Below the pieces are notes generated by a model. The model was not told the DNA's origin and searched no databases. It was given only the letters and a program-made list of their open reading frames with translations. Below, piece by piece: positions 20,250 through 27,685 of a stretch of 35,665 nucleotides of DNA (the stretch's first letter is position 1; each line of letters starts with the position of its first letter). The translations under genes and the position numbers were made by a program. The DNA comes from Nitrospirota bacterium (GTDB lineage Bacteria > Nitrospirota > Nitrospiria > JACQBZ01): the NCBI GenBank assembly GCA_016201865.1, contig JACQCA010000079.1:1-35665 (forward strand), written 5' to 3'.

Positions 20250-20864
20250 TCAGACCAACGCAACGAGCTCTTCATAGATCCTGCGCGCTTGATCTTCGAT
20301 GGTTTTCAGGGGCTGTCCCCCGTCAATAAGATAGTCGGCCTTGCTTTTCTTCTTGGCCTGCGGCATCTGCGACTCAATGCGCCGGACGGCTTCTTCCCGC
20401 AAGAGCCCGTCCCGCTTCATGATGCGGCCGATCTGTTTCCGGCGATCGATCGTCACCAGAATCACCTTGTCCATTAATTGATCCGATCCGGTCTCGATCA
20501 GCAGAGCGGCATCAAAGAGAATGATCGCCCCGGGATCCTTCTGCGCGATCTCCTTCCGCCGGCGTTCTTCCTCCCTAAAGACATAGGGATGGACGATGGA
20601 GTTGAGCAATTCTCTTTTTTCGGGATCGGCAAAAACCAGTCGTGCCAGCTTGGCCCGGTCGAGCGTTCCGTCGGAATTTAAGACCTCGGTTCCGAAGGCC
20701 TCAACGATCCGTTTCAGAACCGGACGCTCCGGTTGAACCGCCTCATGGGCCAGCTCATCCGCGTCAATGAGATAGGCGCCCAGCGCCTTGAAGATCTGCG
20801 CCACCTGAGATTTCCCGCTTCCGATCCCGCCTGTAAGCCCGACAAGGAGCATGACGTCTCGCAT
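20250..20864 (-). CDS. coaE: Dephospho-CoA kinase
   Basis: Catalyses the last step of coenzyme A synthesis, phosphorylation of dephospho-CoA. The P-loop GGIGSGKS is at residues 12-19, followed by LGAYLIDADELAHEAV (the conserved DAD) and the lid-type segment HPYVFREEE. The start is taken as ATG at 20864 (MRDVMLLVGLTGG), with ATG at 20852 as alternative; an open frame reaching 20936 would run through an unrelated promoter repeat and is rejected. Length of 204 residues fits the family. Confidence 0.93.
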   Translation of the reverse strand: MRDVMLLVGLTGGIGSGKSQVAQIFKALGAYLIDADELAHEAVQPERPVLKRIVEAFGTEVLNSDGTLDRAKLARLVFADPEKRELLNSIVHPYVFREEERRRKEIAQKDPGAIILFDAALLIETGSDQLMDKVILVTIDRRKQIGRIMKRDGLLREEAVRRIESQMPQAKKKSKADYLIDGGQPLKTIEDQARRIYEELVALV

Positions 20865-20899
20865 TGTAACACAAGGCATGGAACGGCTCAAACCCGCCC

Positions 20900-20946
20900 T
20901 TGTGATTTTCAACTGTTTTGGGTATAATCCGCCCATCTGTCCTGCC
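20900..20946 (+). promoter_or_regulatory. Promoter-leader module, copy 1
   Basis: TTGTGA (20900-20905), 17 bases, TATAAT (20923-20928), one base, then CGCCCATCTGTCCTGCC (20930-20946) and a T-rich stretch. Copies 2 and 3 at 32885 and 33433 keep the same spacing and the same 17 bases across the expected transcription start. Here it points right, toward a stretch of palindromes and gene fragments before the methyltransferase operon. Confidence 0.7.
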
Positions 20947-21057
20947 AGGTTTTTCTTTTCCGCGTGTCCGGATGCGGCCGCTTCGGGGGGAGCGTGGCTG
21001 AATCTTCGACATGGTCCGGGCGTGAGGTCTGTAATGATCCTGCATCGTTATAATGTA

Positions 21058-21147
21058 GGGGCGAAACCTATGTGTTCGCCCGGAATTTGTAGTGGCACGG
21101 CGCGCCGTGCCTGCCCGGAACCTGTAGGGGCGTATGGTATACGCCCC
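21058..21147 (+). repeat. Three consecutive palindromes with TGTAG-type heads
   Basis: Three different hairpins follow one another: GGGCGAA/TTCGCCC (21059-21081), the perfect 18-base palindrome GGCACGGCGCGCCGTGCC (21094-21111), and GGGGCGTAT/ATACGCCCC (21127-21147). Each is preceded by TGTAG. Similar GTAGGGGC hairpins are common dispersed repeats in environmental bacterial genomes. The end of the repeat at 19133 and 29543 (TATAGGGGC on one strand) has the same head. Confidence 0.65.
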
Positions 21148-21176
21148 GATTAAAATCAACCGACGGATTTTGCATC

Positions 21177-21284
21177 GTGGCGAGGGGGAAAAAGAATCAG
21201 GACAAGAAGACCGGCAATGGAGCCGACCTGGGGGTTGAAGAGAAGCTCCGGCAGGCGGGCGGAGCGGATTTAACTCGGTTCTGA
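21177..21284 (+). pseudogene. Possible N-terminal remnant of a type I methyltransferase (HsdM-like)
   Basis: A 35-codon frame starting at GTG 21177 and ending at TGA 21284. The peptide MARGKKNQDKKTGNGADLG followed by VEEKLRQAGGADL resembles the first residues of HsdM proteins, where a lysine-rich start is followed by a helix of the type LGFEEKLWQAADKLR. Nothing of the methyltransferase domain follows. It may be the stump left by a deletion; the peptide is too short to be sure. Confidence 0.35.
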
Positions 21285-21305
21285 TTTTTGAAATATCCTA
21301 AGCGG

Positions 21306-21461
21306 CATCACGCGGGCGGGCGATGGGAAGCGAATCTGAATCCTTAAAGTCACAAGTTGCAACCTTAATCCGACGCAGGGGCACGGGAAACGGACAGTGG
21401 TCGCGGCGTATGTACAGACCGGAAACAAGCGAAATACAATGATGAGGCAAGAGCAGATTTG
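21306..21461 (+). repeat. 140-bp block, copy 1
   Basis: From 21321 to 21461 this matches 34507-34645 at close to nine positions in ten, and weaker similarity extends upstream to about 21306 and 34492. In the frame starting at ATG 21323 both copies encode MGS.SESL..QVATLI-type residues and GTGNGQWSRRMYR, with many differences at third codon positions. The opposite strand is also open, so coding sense is not certain. This copy lies just before the methyltransferase operon. Confidence 0.7.
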
Positions 21462-21517
21462 CCCCCTTTCCCCCTTTTCTTTTTGGCCCCTTTTTTCGGA
21501 GTAGAGAAGACGTTACC

Positions 21518-22345
21518 ATGAAACGAGAGAACTTCCGAATTCTCCGTTATCCCGGCGGTAAACAGCGGATGCTGGCACACATAGTTCAACACCTCCCACC
21601 GCCAAAGACAATTCGCGCGAGATTTGTAGAGCCGTTTCTGGGTGGCGGCGCAGTTTTTTTTGCCCTTAACCCGTCTCGCGCCCTGTTGGCCGATCTGAAT
21701 CCCGAACTCATTGACCTGTACCGGGGACTCCGTCGTTACCCGGAGGAGGTATGGAGGGTTTTCCGCAGACTGCCAACGACGAAACGAGGCTACTACCAAG
21801 TCCGAGACATGGATGTCTCGCTACTTGATCTACCGGGACGAGCAGCACGAACGCTTTATCTGAACCGAACCTGCTTCAAAGGAATGTGGCGACATAACGC
21901 AGAGGGGAAATTCAATGTCGGTTACGGTGGGCAAGACAGGCGGTGGGTCGTGAGCAGAAGCAACATCTTGAGCGTATCCAAGAGGCTGCGAAAGGTATCG
22001 CTGAAGGCCAGCGATTTCGAAGAGGTCATCGAAGAGTGTTCATCGCAGGATTTCCTCTTTCTCGATCCACCGTACCGGCCGGGCGGCCGAGAGATGACGC
22101 ATGGGCATTACACATACTTGCAGTTTACTTATGCGGATCACAAGCGCTTGGCCGCCGCTCTGAGGGGAGCGTCACGGAAAGGCGTTCGCTGGGCGATGAC
22201 CACAAGTTCTCACCCAGACATACTGAAGCTTTTTCCAGGTAAGCGGGTTGTTTCATTACGGCACGGCACGGGCCGACGGCCGGGCATTCTAACGAAACGC
22301 TCTGGTGAAGTGATTGTCTGCAATTACGACGAGGTGAAAAGATGA
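21518..22345 (+). CDS. DNA adenine N6-methyltransferase, D12 class (Dam-like)
   Basis: A 275-residue adenine methyltransferase. Motif X RYPGGK (10-15), SAM-binding motif I FVEPFLGGGAVFF (36-48), the acidic strand ADLNPELI and catalytic motif IV DPPY (183-186) are all present in the order of the D12 class. It would modify adenine in a short recognition sequence that cannot be predicted here. The stop overlaps the start of the HerA-type gene by four bases (ATGA), so it is co-expressed with the translocase and nuclease genes that follow. The likely role is to mark host DNA. The start has only a weak ribosome binding site. Confidence 0.9.
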   Translation: MKRENFRILRYPGGKQRMLAHIVQHLPPPKTIRARFVEPFLGGGAVFFALNPSRALLADLNPELIDLYRGLRRYPEEVWRVFRRLPTTKRGYYQVRDMDVSLLDLPGRAARTLYLNRTCFKGMWRHNAEGKFNVGYGGQDRRWVVSRSNILSVSKRLRKVSLKASDFEEVIEECSSQDFLFLDPPYRPGGREMTHGHYTYLQFTYADHKRLAAALRGASRKGVRWAMTTSSHPDILKLFPGKRVVSLRHGTGRRPGILTKRSGEVIVCNYDEVKR

Positions 22346-24309
22346 AGGATTTTTTTGCTGAAGCGGCCATGCAGAACCATCCCTTGCGCGCCTTGAGAAC
22401 GTTTCTTGAACAGGAAACGGCGAACGAGAAGGCCAAGAAGTATGACGATATGCGGTTCGTCGGCTATGTGCTGGAGATCGGCTACGATACCGTCACTATC
22501 ATCACGTCTGACCCATTCAAAGTGGCTGTTGGTGGTGTGCCGCGGAACTCGCTTCTGATCATGACGCCTTCAAATTATGAATCATTGCCACCGCACTTCA
22601 CTTTACTTCGGGTGCTTGAATCAGCACCGACGCCACTGTCGAAAGAGGTTCAGCAGACCTATTTCGAACTGCAAAAGAAGTCCATGCCGGAGTTGGACAT
22701 TTTCACCCAGAGTGAATTGCAATGGGGGGCGCTAAAGACAGGTGTTCTGGGCATGTTCTACCCGCGGCCGGATAAACTTGATGAGATTGAATTCTCAGGT
22801 GACTTGAATAATTTCGTCAGTGCGCACAAGTACCTCGTTTACGCACCGGATGATGCGTTGCTGAATCTCATAACAAACTCCATGGTGCCGGCAGAGAACC
22901 GCTTTCCACTTGGAGAACTTCGGTTGACCGAATGTCGAATGCTCTTACCGAACAAGCAGAAACCCGACGTCACGGTACAGGTCTCGACGAAGGATTTTAT
23001 GGGAGCGCGGACAGCGATGTTCGGAAAAACCCGCTTGGGCAAGAGCAACGTGGTAAAACTGATTGCACAAAGCCTGATTGAGACGACGGGATCAACGAAA
23101 AACGTAGGGCAACTCATCTTTGACATAAACGGCGAGTACGCGAACGACAATCCTCAGGATGACAGCCGTTCCTTGGCCACCGGGTTTCCGACACGCTGCC
23201 ACGTCTATGCTCTTGCACCAAAACCTGCAACACCATCCAAACCCCTAAAACTGAACTTCTACGAGCATCCAGACCGTTCGCACAAGGTACTAGCCGAACT
23301 CTTGGAAGGCGAAGGGCGTACTTCGATTTACGTACAGGCATTTCGAGGCACGGAGATTCCTTCGCTGGACTCCCTCAACAGCCTACCGCCCAATGAGCAT
23401 AAAAGAGCGCAGCGGCGAGTTTTGATGTACTGGGCCATCCTGAAGAAGGCCGGTTTTGATGTCGATGAGGCAGCACTTTCAAGGAAGTTAGGCTTTGACC
23501 CGAACTATAACGTGACTTTCCGGACCGCTGTGTACGGGAGTCAGAGGCCGCCAAGCATCAATGCACTTTCTTGGCTCGTTGCCGAATATGAAAGAATTGC
23601 CGACTTTGTCCGGACAAACCCGAACAATCCCGTTCTGATCTCTCCCAGCAGCGGCAATCCCTTGTTCATGCCAGATGACCTGGCACTCCTAAACTTCCTC
23701 AAACCATCCACCGGCGCCGGCCCAGCCATGATTCAGCGATTCCGAATCTATCACGATAGAAATGCAGGGGACTTCGCGATGGAAATCAAGAAGCTCCTCG
23801 ATGAGGGGCAGACGGTCATCCTCGATCTTGGTAACGCCAATCCGGAAGTAATGGCTTACTTTTCGGAAGAGCTGTCGAGGTCGGTTTTCAATCATCAGGT
23901 CGACAAGTTCACGAATAACGCGCTCGGTTCGCACTATATGCAATTGTATTTCGAGGAGGCCCACAATTTGTTTCCCACCAAGGAAGAGGCGACTCTCGAC
24001 ATCTATCGCCGCCTTGCAAAGGAAGGAGCGAAGTATCACATCGGGATGGTTTACTCGACACAGTCTGTGACGACCATAAATAAGGACCTGCTTGCGCAGA
24101 CGGAGAATTTCTTCATCGCGCACATATCTTCACAAGACGAAGTCAACGCGCTTGCCAAAGTCAATGTTGCTTACGAAACCATGAAAGGCGATATTCTACA
24201 GGCCAAGACACCCGGCTATGTAAGGATGCTCACGCGCTCACACCGTTTCGTCGTCTCGGTACAGGCGCGCAAGTTCGTACCCCCAACCCCGCCACAAGGA
24301 GGAAACTGA
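22342..24309 (+). CDS. HerA-type hexameric DNA translocase ATPase
   Basis: A 655-residue HerA/FtsK-superfamily ATPase. An N-terminal HAS-barrel-like segment (MRFVGYVLEIGYDTVTII, about 37-54) precedes Walker A GKTRLGKS (228-235), the DINGEY strand (261-266) characteristic of HerA, a long insertion, Walker B YFEEAHNL (536-543) and a YSTQS sensor (571-575). HerA proteins form rings that move duplex DNA and feed it to NurA nucleases. The gene sits between an adenine methyltransferase (overlap of four bases) and a NurA-like nuclease (one base apart), so the three are very probably one functional unit. Confidence 0.88.
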   Translation: MKDFFAEAAMQNHPLRALRTFLEQETANEKAKKYDDMRFVGYVLEIGYDTVTIITSDPFKVAVGGVPRNSLLIMTPSNYESLPPHFTLLRVLESAPTPLSKEVQQTYFELQKKSMPELDIFTQSELQWGALKTGVLGMFYPRPDKLDEIEFSGDLNNFVSAHKYLVYAPDDALLNLITNSMVPAENRFPLGELRLTECRMLLPNKQKPDVTVQVSTKDFMGARTAMFGKTRLGKSNVVKLIAQSLIETTGSTKNVGQLIFDINGEYANDNPQDDSRSLATGFPTRCHVYALAPKPATPSKPLKLNFYEHPDRSHKVLAELLEGEGRTSIYVQAFRGTEIPSLDSLNSLPPNEHKRAQRRVLMYWAILKKAGFDVDEAALSRKLGFDPNYNVTFRTAVYGSQRPPSINALSWLVAEYERIADFVRTNPNNPVLISPSSGNPLFMPDDLALLNFLKPSTGAGPAMIQRFRIYHDRNAGDFAMEIKKLLDEGQTVILDLGNANPEVMAYFSEELSRSVFNHQVDKFTNNALGSHYMQLYFEEAHNLFPTKEEATLDIYRRLAKEGAKYHIGMVYSTQSVTTINKDLLAQTENFFIAHISSQDEVNALAKVNVAYETMKGDILQAKTPGYVRMLTRSHRFVVSVQARKFVPPTPPQGGN

Positions 24310-24310
24310 G

Positions 24311-25630
24311 TTGCCCTACCAAGCCGGACACCGCTTACCGCCTGAGAGGGCCAGCCGCTTGGGCCACCTTGACGTGTTGAAGAGTAGGCTGGTAAAGAAG
24401 CTATGTGAGAGCTTCGAAGATCCTGATCAAGTGGGCGTTTCAGCAAACCCAGTGTGGGAGAAGATACCATCCAACGGAGAACCGCTTACGTTGGTGTTTG
24501 GCATTGATGGCTCGCTACAGATAATCGAGTCCGAAACCCCGCCGCACAAGGCACTCGGCTTTGTAAAGACTGCATTGTTGAGACTCGATCAAGCTGCCCT
24601 CTCTTCCATCGACAAGGATTCTCCGCACCCGTTTGCCCTACGAGATATTTTGGCGGATTCCGCTTTGTACCACGCGACAGTGTTCCCCCTGAGACACGTG
24701 GTCGTTCCCGACATGTCAACGTACGACGCAATCCGACAAGCGATCTTTGAATCCGTCAAAGACGCCTCGCTGCGTGGCGAACCTATGGAAACGCTGAAAT
24801 GGATCGCCTATGAAAAGTGGGACGGGCGGAACAAGGGCCTGCCTCCATTCGAATGCCCCCACTGCGGGCACGGACGGAGCAATGCGACTCTGCCGTATGA
24901 TACGGAAGAAGGAAACTGTGCCGAATGTGGGGGGCATCTTTTCCTCACAGACATGCTCGGTTTCCACCAGGAAATGGCGGTGGAGTCCGCACCTGATTCA
25001 ATTGCTTCTTCTTACATGGCAATTCACGAAACATTGCTGTTGTTCACAGGCATTCGGTACTTCTGGGAGCACAACAAGGCTGCACTGTCACAGTGCCTCT
25101 TTGTGAAAGATGGGCCGTTGTCGATCCGCGCACAATATTCAAAACTCGTAGCCCCGATTCGACGATTTCTGTCACACGCCAAGGACACAAACTGCCCTGT
25201 CCACATTATCGGACAAGAGAAATCCGGTACTTTTTTCGACCATCTTCAGTTGATAGGCCGAGGCGCACCTTTAGAACATCTCTTCGTTCCCGGCGACCTC
25301 TACATCAAAGAGGAAATACAACACCGGCCGAGCACTGGCGCTGTCTACGGGAAAGACACGAACTACGGCGCGAAGGTGTTCGTCAAACTGAACCAATACC
25401 ACCAAATGGTTCTCAACATTCCCACGGGGGCGCACAAGGCAAACCCTAACTCGTCGGAGTTGATTGGTGTGAAGAGGATATTCGCCACAATCCCGAAGAT
25501 TCTGAGCAATCGGTACGAAGGCGCTCTTCTGCCGATTGAACTAGCGAATGGCGTCGCGTCGCTCTCGACCTATCCCTCAGCTCACATCTTGAAGATCTTC
25601 GCCGAGTCGACAATCCGCCGTGCGCCCTGA
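24311..25630 (+). CDS. NurA-like nuclease with internal zinc ribbon
   Basis: A 439-residue protein with NurA features: GIDGS (64-68, catalytic D66), VKDGPL (265-270, D267), IIGQEKSG (299-306) and a C-terminal FVKLNQYHQMVLNIP segment. A zinc ribbon is inserted in the middle (C182, C185, C203, C206 in CPHCG and CAECG). NurA enzymes cut DNA with HerA as motor. The TTG start at 24311 is supported by AAGGAGG eight bases upstream and by the one-base gap after the HerA gene. The assignment rests on motifs and context; the family is divergent. Confidence 0.75.
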   Translation: MPYQAGHRLPPERASRLGHLDVLKSRLVKKLCESFEDPDQVGVSANPVWEKIPSNGEPLTLVFGIDGSLQIIESETPPHKALGFVKTALLRLDQAALSSIDKDSPHPFALRDILADSALYHATVFPLRHVVVPDMSTYDAIRQAIFESVKDASLRGEPMETLKWIAYEKWDGRNKGLPPFECPHCGHGRSNATLPYDTEEGNCAECGGHLFLTDMLGFHQEMAVESAPDSIASSYMAIHETLLLFTGIRYFWEHNKAALSQCLFVKDGPLSIRAQYSKLVAPIRRFLSHAKDTNCPVHIIGQEKSGTFFDHLQLIGRGAPLEHLFVPGDLYIKEEIQHRPSTGAVYGKDTNYGAKVFVKLNQYHQMVLNIPTGAHKANPNSSELIGVKRIFATIPKILSNRYEGALLPIELANGVASLSTYPSAHILKIFAESTIRRAP

Positions 25631-25669
25631 GTATTGAAAGCACGGGGCCAGTAAAGGTAAAAGAGACGC

Positions 25670-25687
25670 GGGTCAGATCTTTACTTT
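25670..25687 (-). repeat. Short dispersed repeat AAAGTAAAGATCTGACCC
   Basis: On the minus strand this 18-mer matches 35176-35193 at 16 positions, and its end resembles AAGACCTGACCCC at 34684-34696. The rest of the 352-base gap between the NurA and nuclease-like genes shows one hairpin (next entry), a GC-rich phrase CGGCCTCGCGCGC near 25834 that recurs near 26850, and no gene I can support. Confidence 0.5.
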
Positions 25688-25780
25688 GGCATCTGAATTG
25701 GCAAGCCGGGTCGGACCTGAAGAAGGGATTGGAAGATAAGAAGTTTCTTTTAAAAAGAACTCGTTTTTAGATCTTAGAAG

Positions 25781-25804
25781 GCCCTTTTTGAGTCTGAAAA
25801 GGGC
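25781..25804 (+). other. Hairpin downstream of the NurA-like gene
   Basis: GCCCTTTT (25781-25788) and AAAAGGGC (25797-25804) form a perfect 8-bp stem with an 8-base loop. No T-run follows on either strand, so it is not a standard intrinsic terminator. Confidence 0.4.
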
Positions 25805-25982
25805 GGTTTAAGAAACGCACCGGCTCCGCTCCGGCCTCGCGCGCAAGTGGTAAGCAAAAAATGATTTCCGGAATAATAGGCGTCGGACTCGTATGGATGT
25901 AATGTTCGAGATCCTTTTTTCATGATCATATGGTCGATGTTATGTTTTATTGGACGACCTGAGCCTTTGGGGCGAGGAATGA

Positions 25983-26726
25983 ATGCGGGAATTAAGAATC
26001 AACGAGTGCCTCATAGGGCCATCGATTCGAAGATTGATCCTTCGCGACCACACTACGCTTGAGAAATGGAATGACAAAGAGCACCTCAAGGGTTGGGAGC
26101 GTGACCGTCTTGGTTATAAAGAACGAAGGCTACAGGCTCTATTATCTCAGGTTTTGAGTAAGCGGAACTTTGAAGTGATCGTGGAGAGCTATTTCCCCAA
26201 AAAGCTAAGAGGTAAAGGTTACAGGTCGTGCGATCTTTACGCCTATCAACGGCACCCTTATCGGGAAATTTGGATCGAAATCAAGAGTTATTCGCTGAGG
26301 ACTGGGGGCCGACATGTTCTGATCAACACTTTTTTCGATCTATCCAAACTGCTCACTCATACGACAAAAGGCAATTTGCTAATTTTGTGGGTTCTTTTCT
26401 ATACAGACAACGACAAACAGTTCAGTGACTTCATTCGAGAGCAGGAAAATACAGGCTCATACTTTTTATATAATGTGACAAAACGGGCTCTTGTACGATG
26501 CCATCGGTCTGGTGAAAGAGGAAAAGCTAGGAGCCCTTGGAGAAATCTGCGGCGCCTGTTCAACCACTTAGATTCGCTAAGCGCAATTGATGCGATTCAC
26601 TCACTTAAAGCATGGTTTGAGCGGACAGGCGGACGCACATACCTTGTGCCGATTAGCGGCTTACGCAAGAATCTCAAACATGAATGGGTAAAGTACGGAA
26701 TATTCTGTGGATCGATCAGATGCTAA
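25983..26726 (+). CDS. Putative PD-(D/E)XK nuclease
   Basis: A 247-residue protein with no recognised named family. The middle carries a restriction-endonuclease-like core: FEVIVESYFPKK (E69), then CDLYAY (D84) and IWIEIKSY (E99, K101), which fits the D-xn-ExK arrangement with normal spacing. The N- and C-terminal parts are basic and probably bind DNA or a partner. An AGGA-containing sequence lies just before the ATG at 25983. The gene is clearly more AT-rich than its surroundings, a sign of transfer. It lies on the same strand as the methyltransferase-HerA-NurA operon but 352 bases away, so it may be an added component or an independent gene. Confidence 0.6.
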   Translation: MRELRINECLIGPSIRRLILRDHTTLEKWNDKEHLKGWERDRLGYKERRLQALLSQVLSKRNFEVIVESYFPKKLRGKGYRSCDLYAYQRHPYREIWIEIKSYSLRTGGRHVLINTFFDLSKLLTHTTKGNLLILWVLFYTDNDKQFSDFIREQENTGSYFLYNVTKRALVRCHRSGERGKARSPWRNLRRLFNHLDSLSAIDAIHSLKAWFERTGGRTYLVPISGLRKNLKHEWVKYGIFCGSIRC

Positions 26727-26889
26727 CTTAGTTTAACCGTGAGGGGAAGGTCTTAAATTACATGAAAAGAGGGGTAGCTCAGGCTGCTTTTCTTGACGGT
26801 GTGGGAACTGGATTCCGGCGTGACGATACCATAGTCCTATCCGTTTCCCCTCGGCCTCGCGCGCGGGGGGAAGCGGGGGTGGAGTTATC

Positions 26890-27177
26890 TTATCCTGCTT
26901 TGACAAGGGGCGGTAGTCGCCGCCGGGGTCGTTGCTTCCATAGGATGTAGTTGTTTTGAAGGTTCATCCAAAACTCCGGGCTTGTGCGGAACAGATCGGC
27001 CAGTCTCCAGGCCATGGAGGCGGATAGACCGACATGACCTTTGATGATCCGGTTGATATCCTTGGCGCTGCAGCCCAGGTGGTGCGCCAACTCGGCCTGT
27101 GAGATTCCGAGCGGTTTTAAAAACTCCTCCTGTAAAACTTCACCGGGATGGGTCGGCGGACGATGCGTCGGCAACAT
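26890..27177 (-). CDS. higA: HigA-type antitoxin (XRE helix-turn-helix)
   Basis: A 95-residue HigA antitoxin. HPGEVLQEEFLKPLGISQAELA (about 10-31) and the helix-turn-helix up to about residue 65 are diagnostic, as is the PEFWMNLQNNY segment after it. It binds DNA and its HigB partner and usually represses the operon. GGGAGG precedes the ATG, and it follows higB by 11 bases on the minus strand, the toxin-first order typical of HigBA. Confidence 0.92.
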   Translation of the reverse strand: MLPTHRPPTHPGEVLQEEFLKPLGISQAELAHHLGCSAKDINRIIKGHVGLSASMAWRLADLFRTSPEFWMNLQNNYILWKQRPRRRLPPLVKAG

Positions 27178-27188
27178 GATGGCCTCCC

Positions 27189-27476
27189 TTAGTGATAATC
27201 TTTAATCCGGACTTCATGGGCATTTCTATTCTGCCACTTGAAGATGATACGATATTGATCATTGATCCGAATGCTGTAAAATCCTTTTAGATCTCCTTTG
27301 AGCAGTTCCAGCCGGTTATTCGGCGGAGACATGAGATCATCGAGCCTCGACGCCGTGTTGACCATGTCGAGCTTTCGGCGAACTACTTTGAGAATGGCCT
27401 GGAAGACCCGTGTGCTTTTGGAGCCCACACCGTTGAAGAGGTCTTCTGTCGTCTTGTCGCCGAAAGAAAGGATCAC
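27189..27476 (-). CDS. higB: HigB-type toxin (RelE/ParE fold)
   Basis: A 95-residue HigB mRNA-cleaving toxin. RKLDMVNTASRLDDLMSPPNNRLELLKGD (about 34-62), FYSIRINDQYRIIFKW and the C-terminal VRIKDYH with the conserved DYH terminus are typical. The start is GTG at 27476 with CGAGGAG about six bases upstream. It is followed by higA. Confidence 0.92.
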   Translation of the reverse strand: MILSFGDKTTEDLFNGVGSKSTRVFQAILKVVRRKLDMVNTASRLDDLMSPPNNRLELLKGDLKGFYSIRINDQYRIIFKWQNRNAHEVRIKDYH

Positions 27477-27492
27477 GAAGGCTCCTCGGACT

Positions 27493-27498
27493 ATTATA
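27493..27498 (-). promoter_or_regulatory. Possible -10 element of higBA
   Basis: A perfect TATAAT on the minus strand (27498-27493), about 17 bases before the higB GTG. No good -35 hexamer is found at 17 bases, so the promoter would depend on the -10 or an activator. Confidence 0.4.
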
Positions 27499-27557
27499 AG
27501 ATTACCATAGAATGGGTAGACCGTGCAATGCTATATTATTATGGGGCCGGGACTGAC

Positions 27558-27583
27558 CCGGAGAAATTTAGGTTTCTCTCCGG
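27558..27583 (+). other. Hairpin in the higBA-moxR divergent region
   Basis: CCGGAGAAA (27558-27566) pairs with TTTCTCTCCGG (27573-27583) with one or two bulged bases. A second hairpin, CCCCGG/CCGGGG, lies near 27622-27641. Neither has a T-run. The region is otherwise occupied by the two promoters. Confidence 0.35.
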
Positions 27584-27685
27584 CCGCGCGCGCGGACAAG
27601 AACCGTCCTTTGAAGAACCCCGGTCTTCCAGCCGGGGATTGCGCCCGCTGTGCGGATTCATTGACTCCCACCGGCTCCAGTCGCG

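Follow-up and report, generated by a model that had tools for sequence, protein, structure and literature searches.

We analyzed a 35,665-nucleotide (nt) stretch of DNA from a Nitrospirota bacterium (contig JACQCA010000079.1 of assembly GCA_016201865.1; hereafter, the window) that carries three adjacent genes encoding a DNA methyltransferase, a HerA-type ATPase, and a NurA-type nuclease. The three open reading frames (ORFs) are intact, lie on the + strand, and are tightly packed: the stop codon of the methyltransferase gene and the start codon of the HerA gene share 4 nt (ATGA, 22342-22345), and the nuclease gene starts with a TTG at 24311, one base past the HerA stop codon (24307-24309). A first-pass annotation had read these overlapping or abutting genes as a single operon with a possible restriction-like role in defense. 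Its observations were confirmed, from the placement of the genes to every motif it quoted (DPPY, Walker A, DINGEY, D66, D267, and C182/C185/C203/C206) at the residues given below, while its interpretation is partly supported. The features of the operon are as follows.

21518-22345, + strand: D12-class (Dam-like) adenine-N6 DNA methyltransferase, 275 amino acids (aa) (PF02086, E-value 1.4e-42)
22064-22075, + strand: DPPY catalytic motif of the methyltransferase, aa 183-186 (D183-P-P-Y186), invariant in seven aligned clade members
22342-24309, + strand: HerA-type hexameric DNA translocase ATPase, 655 aa (PF01935, 5.8e-14)
23023-23046, + strand: Walker A motif GKTRLGKS, aa 228-235 (G228-S235), with the family consensus G(K/M)(T/S)R(L/T/S)GKS
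23122-23139, + strand: HerA signature DINGEY, aa 261-266
23950-23964, + strand: Walker B region FEEAH, aa 537-541, followed by an AKEGAK...YSTQ segment, conserved in all HerA rows
24296-24302, + strand: Shine-Dalgarno sequence AAGGAGG for nurA, within the end of herA, read from the sequence
24311-25630, + strand: predicted nuclease of the NurA family (439 aa, TTG start), containing an internal zinc ribbon; its homologs match PF09376
24506-24508, + strand: NurA motif I aspartate D66, invariant in 30 sequences
24854-24928, + strand: zinc ribbon C182-C185...C203-C206, with the four cysteines present in most of 32 members
25109-25111, + strand: second NurA aspartate D267 (KDGPL), invariant in 30 sequences

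The identities proposed earlier for the methyltransferase and the ATPase were borne out by these Pfam matches. The methyltransferase also scored above the model cutoff of TIGR00571 dam (1.1e-52), and its closest PDB sequences are M.DpnII (1.9e-35) and then EcoDam (1.7e-22), both GATC enzymes. When the DNA-contact residues of EcoDam are placed on the alignment, R124 is kept as R125, K9 becomes R10, and P134 becomes G135. Because R125, R10, and G135 are invariant in the clade alignment, the clade methyltransferases likely share a single recognition site, which is not necessarily GATC. GATC occurs in the window 2.8-fold above a simple base-composition expectation, yet its frequency is near that expected under a Markov model, and relatives lacking the operon show similar values; these counts are therefore uninformative on specificity.

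The second protein possesses the Walker A and Walker B motifs, the HerA signature, and the glutamine after the core strand that define HerA/FtsK ATPases. Its closest PDB sequence is TdpA, the ATPase of a Thermus system considered below (phmmer, 5e-25; profile, 2.8e-30); the runner-up in the profile search is the HerA partner of SIR2, at 5.8e-12. In the reverse direction, a TdpA fragment matched HerA proteins of the clade best (7e-27, with 40% identity to locus L009) and the plasmid SIR2-HerA and DUF4297-HerA proteins at 1e-18 or weaker. In a fragment tree of ~190 columns with just five outgroup rows, TdpA groups with the clade HerA family (support, 100/99).

For the third protein itself, we found no significant direct match in Pfam, NCBIfam, or PADLOC, and no PADLOC-DB 2.0.0 model matches it. 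Its assignment to the NurA family, also proposed in the first-pass annotation, stands by homology: full-length homologs that align with it across its whole length match PF09376 (L054, 9e-33; L052, 5.2e-23; L003, 1.3e-22; L066, 8.5e-16), and plasmid homologs carry a NurA annotation in public records. Five residues (D66, R142, E240, D267, and H311) are invariant in the 30-sequence alignment. In a comparison by fold, the sole notable PDB match, TdpB (8wfd_G, from the TdpAB-DNA complex; E-value 1.4e-3, probability 1.00, with the next match at 0.36), was obtained with a low-confidence model, and the sequence profile matches TdpB weakly (1.2). The zinc ribbon had been put forward as a mark that sets this protein apart. 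It is not diagnostic, being reduced or lost in L052, L054, L055, L067, L070, and the L061 fusion described below.

We next consider how widely the three genes occur together. A scan of GTDB genomes with an alignment of the two closest nuclease sequences returned ten relatives with 55 to 67% identity, in metagenome-assembled genomes labeled Chloroflexi/Dehalococcoidia, Bacteroidetes, Nitrospirae, and Nitrospinota. Where the DNA extends far enough (L009, L011-L014, L016, and L062), D12 methyltransferase, HerA, and NurA follow one another on one strand in a fixed order. At L015, a contig break divides the operon; the remaining half is on L072, and the HerA sequences of the two overlap. In total, the triad stands in this order in nine genomes including that of the window, with Chloroflexota, Bacteroidota, and Nitrospirota among them, which bears out the expectation that the set would be kept elsewhere. 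Of the ten genomes from which L009-L018 come, seven have a single methyltransferase of this subfamily, in each case inside the operon; in the others, the locus is cut by a contig end or, at L018, consists of a frameshifted NurA gene without partners. Because unrelated phyla share the gene order, strand, and tight spacing, and because the protein distances covary, the grouping goes beyond chance.

The system is also sporadic. With the window nuclease as query, a homolog was found in 3 of 198 genomes of its own phylum, its own genome included, and a 17-row NurA profile, run on two samples from other phyla, matched 12 genomes out of 346 and 8 out of 350. At least three bacterial phyla contain close relatives; more distant relatives are carried by plasmids of cyanobacteria, archaea, and Deferribacter and by Vibrio phages.

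Across this wider family, HerA lies directly 5' of NurA wherever the contig permits, and the five plasmids matched by the HerA query are the same five matched by the NurA query. A DNA methyltransferase is at hand in 28 of the 32 loci with enough context and is directly adjacent on the same strand in 24 of the 32. The 24 adjacent enzymes are of three kinds, namely, D12 upstream (12 loci), N6_N4_Mtase upstream (4 loci), and permuted N6_N4_Mtase downstream (8 loci). Four further loci have a methyltransferase nearby: as the third gene downstream (L066), on the opposite strand (L063 and the Vibrio phage locus L075), or fused (L061). None is adjacent in the remaining four, which are three cyanobacterial plasmids (L004, L006, and L008) and L058; the last of these adjoins a type I restriction-modification system. 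Mapped on the NurA tree, methyltransferase type changes label 8 times, against a shuffled mean of 17.4, and is thus clustered yet switched several times, with D12 enzymes in at least two separate clades. Pairwise distances of HerA and NurA correlate with an r of 0.93 (29 loci) and those of the D12 methyltransferase and NurA with an r of 0.99 (11 loci), or 0.88 in the close clade (8 loci); these values are uncorrected for host descent, though the system crosses phyla. From the adjacency counts, the switches on the tree, and the covarying distances, it follows that the modification enzyme is coupled to the HerA-NurA pair but replaceable.

Some loci depart from this pattern. At L061:8047-9444, the ORF after HerA resembles the N-terminal ~110 residues of NurA and, beyond them, an N6_N4 methyltransferase, reflecting either a fusion or a deletion within NurA. 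Apparent decay is seen at L018, at L067 and L068, where a TGA lies within the NurA frame or at its edge, and at L005, where HerA is broken by an IS200/IS605 TnpA-TnpB element.

The operon was acquired as part of an island. When five genomes of the same family were aligned with the window by blastn, the alignment ended at 20852-20860 and restarted at 27670-27674, defining an empty site at which coaE and moxR are divergent neighbors ~90 to 150 bp apart. None of six same-family genomes carries a homolog of the nuclease. The span initially delimited (21518-25630) was correct for the operon but slightly short of the foreign DNA, which comprises the following in addition to the three genes.

20861-27669 (~6.8 kb): acquired island between coaE and moxR, carrying the three-gene operon, one accessory ORF, and the toxin-antitoxin pair HigBA, delimited by blastn
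25983-26726, + strand: accessory ORF, 247 aa, a possible PD-(D/E)XK nuclease (subthreshold SwaI-like match, E-value 0.037; EIWIEIKS stretch)
26890-27177, - strand: HigA-like antitoxin (HTH_3; PF01381, 1.4e-8)
27189-27476, - strand: HigB-like toxin (PF05015, 2.2e-20)

We considered the accessory ORF as a fourth subunit and rejected it, as no homolog is present in related loci. By ORF and Pfam annotation, there is no integrase, relaxase, or type IIG enzyme among the genes of the island, nor a second candidate for the modifying gene besides the D12 methyltransferase, nor a TdpC-type phosphorothioation gene.

Related loci adjoin known defense genes, including Septu PtuA (5.7e-213) and PtuB, a type I methyltransferase, AbiTii, SoFic, and a GajB-like helicase. 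At L053:9361-12486, the genes immediately after HerA-NurA are PtuA and PtuB, and a PF01555 methyltransferase lies upstream of the set; the genes at L056:9372-12497 are the same in size and order. A UvrD helicase follows HerA-NurA at L065:9480-12961, together with a PD-(D/E)XK nuclease, and at L066:9419-14815, together with a further methyltransferase; these loci may represent larger composite systems. Relatives of the window nuclease are also carried by two Vibrio phages (PQ189353 and PQ189371). In PQ189353 (L075:1309-5751), HerA, as two overlapping ORFs, and NurA come after the integrase gene, and the excisionase gene is preceded by a D12 methyltransferase; the site between integrase and excisionase genes is a common spot for defense cargo. 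Scans of viral contigs with five NurA queries found no relatives.

The same genome also carries a second, different HerA-NurA cluster on contig C26 (L098:127-3711, - strand), where a DruA/DUF4338 gene (PADLOC, 1.2e-117), NurA (375 aa, in which no zinc ribbon is seen), and an ATPase of the HerA type (432 aa) stand in a row. This cluster is possibly a Druantia-related defense variant. Comparison of the NurA family with this second NurA by hhalign covered motif I alone and is thus weak evidence. PF09376 NurA is absent in 39 relatives, so the lineage seems not to use NurA for core repair, and a housekeeping role for the C26 pair was rejected on the same grounds.

The closest known counterpart appears to be TdpABC of Thermus antranikianii (An et al. 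2025, Nat Chem Biol, doi 10.1038/s41589-024-01832-w, cited in PMC13251355; structures 8wet, 8wfd, and 8y1k), in which a HerA-type ATPase and a NurA-type nuclease reportedly act with DNA phosphorothioation. The sulfur in the backbone, a mark that TdpA is reported to sense, reportedly hinders translocation in the Tdp system. Both systems pair the same two kinds of protein with a DNA-modifying enzyme. They differ in the modification, which in the window would be base methylation by the D12 enzyme rather than phosphorothioation by TdpC, and in the nuclease, which is longer than TdpB (439 versus 375 aa) and has a zinc ribbon. Since the operon lacks a phosphorothioation gene, the hallmark of TdpABC, we do not class it under that name, although it may function in a similar way. 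In HerA-SIR2 (Nezha) and HerA-DUF4297, a HerA hexamer likewise drives an effector in anti-phage defense, but the effectors are different, there is no methyltransferase, and the HerA proteins are more distant than TdpA. Type II restriction-modification systems with Dam/DpnII-type methylases share the family of the modification enzyme; here, however, restriction would fall to an ATP-driven translocating nuclease and not to a site-specific endonuclease. Finally, the tdtA operon of ICETh1 in Thermus thermophilus encodes Tth111II, NurA, TdtA, and a PF01555 methylase, and DNA donation/export depends on NurA, TdtA, and the restriction enzyme (PMC5365140, PMC7767461). Going by its description, that operon resembles ours in uniting a NurA-like nuclease, a HerA/FtsK-type ATPase, and a methylase; it differs in the reversed order of ATPase and nuclease, the added type IIG enzyme, a methylase of PF01555 and not of the D12 class, and its role in donation. 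The first-pass annotation knew of no named system with this composition. Our literature search also found no paper naming the exact methyltransferase-HerA-NurA combination, although a prior mention is possible; the close precedents in TdpABC and ICETh1 had been missed.

Taken together, the intact operon is conserved as a unit across phyla, has moved as an island, and encodes a HerA that is kin by sequence to TdpA. We think that it is probably a mobile, three-gene, restriction-modification-like defense system of the TdpAB type in which base methylation takes the place of phosphorothioation. The mobility, sporadic distribution, and defense-gene neighbors favor the defensive role proposed at the outset; that the methylation marks self, what triggers the system, and how the mark is read are what we infer. 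In such a system, the D12 methyltransferase would modify host DNA at a fixed adenine site. HerA, as a hexamer together with NurA in the arrangement known for HerA-NurA and TdpAB, would encircle or thread duplex DNA, pump it by ATP hydrolysis, and feed it to NurA. Methylated host DNA would be spared, with the mark stopping loading, translocation, or cutting, and unmarked phage or plasmid DNA would be degraded. The zinc ribbon of NurA, which most but not all members have, and the variable middle of HerA (~aa 310 to 460) are candidate readers of the site or of its methyl status.

Several points weigh against this interpretation. The predicted AlphaFold models are of low confidence for both NurA (pLDDT 52.7, pTM 0.60) and HerA (pLDDT 50, pTM 0.46), and a fold search with the latter returned many HerA structures, with TdpA not among the 50 matches listed. 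We discarded the HerA model as a judge of kinship to TdpA, as it is too poor, and the Tdp link is therefore drawn mainly from sequence. Because TdpA reportedly responds to a mark in the backbone, its mode of sensing need not carry over to a methylated base, which would have to be read in another way, possibly through the candidate regions named above. A second D12 methyltransferase is encoded elsewhere in the same genome (G000:C18:39621-40241; PF02086, 3.1e-36), which could also confound methylome work on this genome. The three cyanobacterial plasmid loci carry HerA-NurA without an adjacent methyltransferase. The main caution comes from the ICETh1 operon, which is similar in parts and works in DNA donation.

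Of the alternatives, the one that survives best retains a role in defense but not the methyltransferase as a simple self-mark. The enzyme might instead serve as a target recognizer, or as a partly independent guard alongside a HerA-NurA pair triggered by other cues, such as DNA ends, phage proteins, or foreign methylation. The members without an adjacent methyltransferase (L004, L006, and L008) and the swapping of methyltransferase kinds on the NurA tree would fit this idea, as would the existence of methyltransferase-free defense systems in which HerA partners with SIR2 or DUF4297. We nonetheless consider it unlikely, given how closely the distances of methyltransferase, HerA, and NurA covary and how regularly (28 of 32 loci) a methyltransferase is nearby.

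It is less likely still that the operon is a DNA-mobilization module like that of ICETh1, in which the HerA/FtsK-type TdtA exports donor DNA with NurA and the methyltransferase is an accessory. The similarity in parts to the tdtA operon, the genetic requirement for NurA, TdtA, and the restriction enzyme in donation (PMC5365140, PMC7767461), and the presence of some family members on phages or plasmids all speak for such a module. However, the island lacks an integrase, a relaxase, and a type IIG enzyme, the gene order differs, the neighbors of its relatives are defense genes, and the host phyla are not known for transjugation.

A double-strand-break repair pair with an unrelated methyltransferase alongside is very improbable: the archaeal and Deinococcus end-resection complex belongs to the same two protein families (PMC9960219), but it serves core repair with no methyltransferase and no island, whereas here the methyltransferase is coconserved and covarying, the island is missing from same-family genomes, the distribution is sporadic, PF09376 NurA is absent in the 39 relatives, and the window nuclease itself has no direct PF09376 match.

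Returning to the restriction-modification-like reading, we see about an even chance that the operon belongs to an unnamed, phylum-spanning class of ATP-dependent restriction-modification systems, with HerA-NurA as the restriction arm and a plug-in modification arm (D12 N6-methyladenine, two N6/N4 layouts, and Thermus phosphorothioation). If so, this would add a compact type of defense that PADLOC-DB 2.0.0 does not flag via its nuclease. One nuclease architecture would then have to read chemically different self-marks, which raises the testable question of how a DNA-tracking HerA-NurA complex tells a methylated base or a backbone sulfur from unmodified DNA. Phosphorothioation in the Tdp system would, in turn, be a particular instance of a broader scheme in which the same motor-nuclease pair is matched with exchangeable DNA marks.

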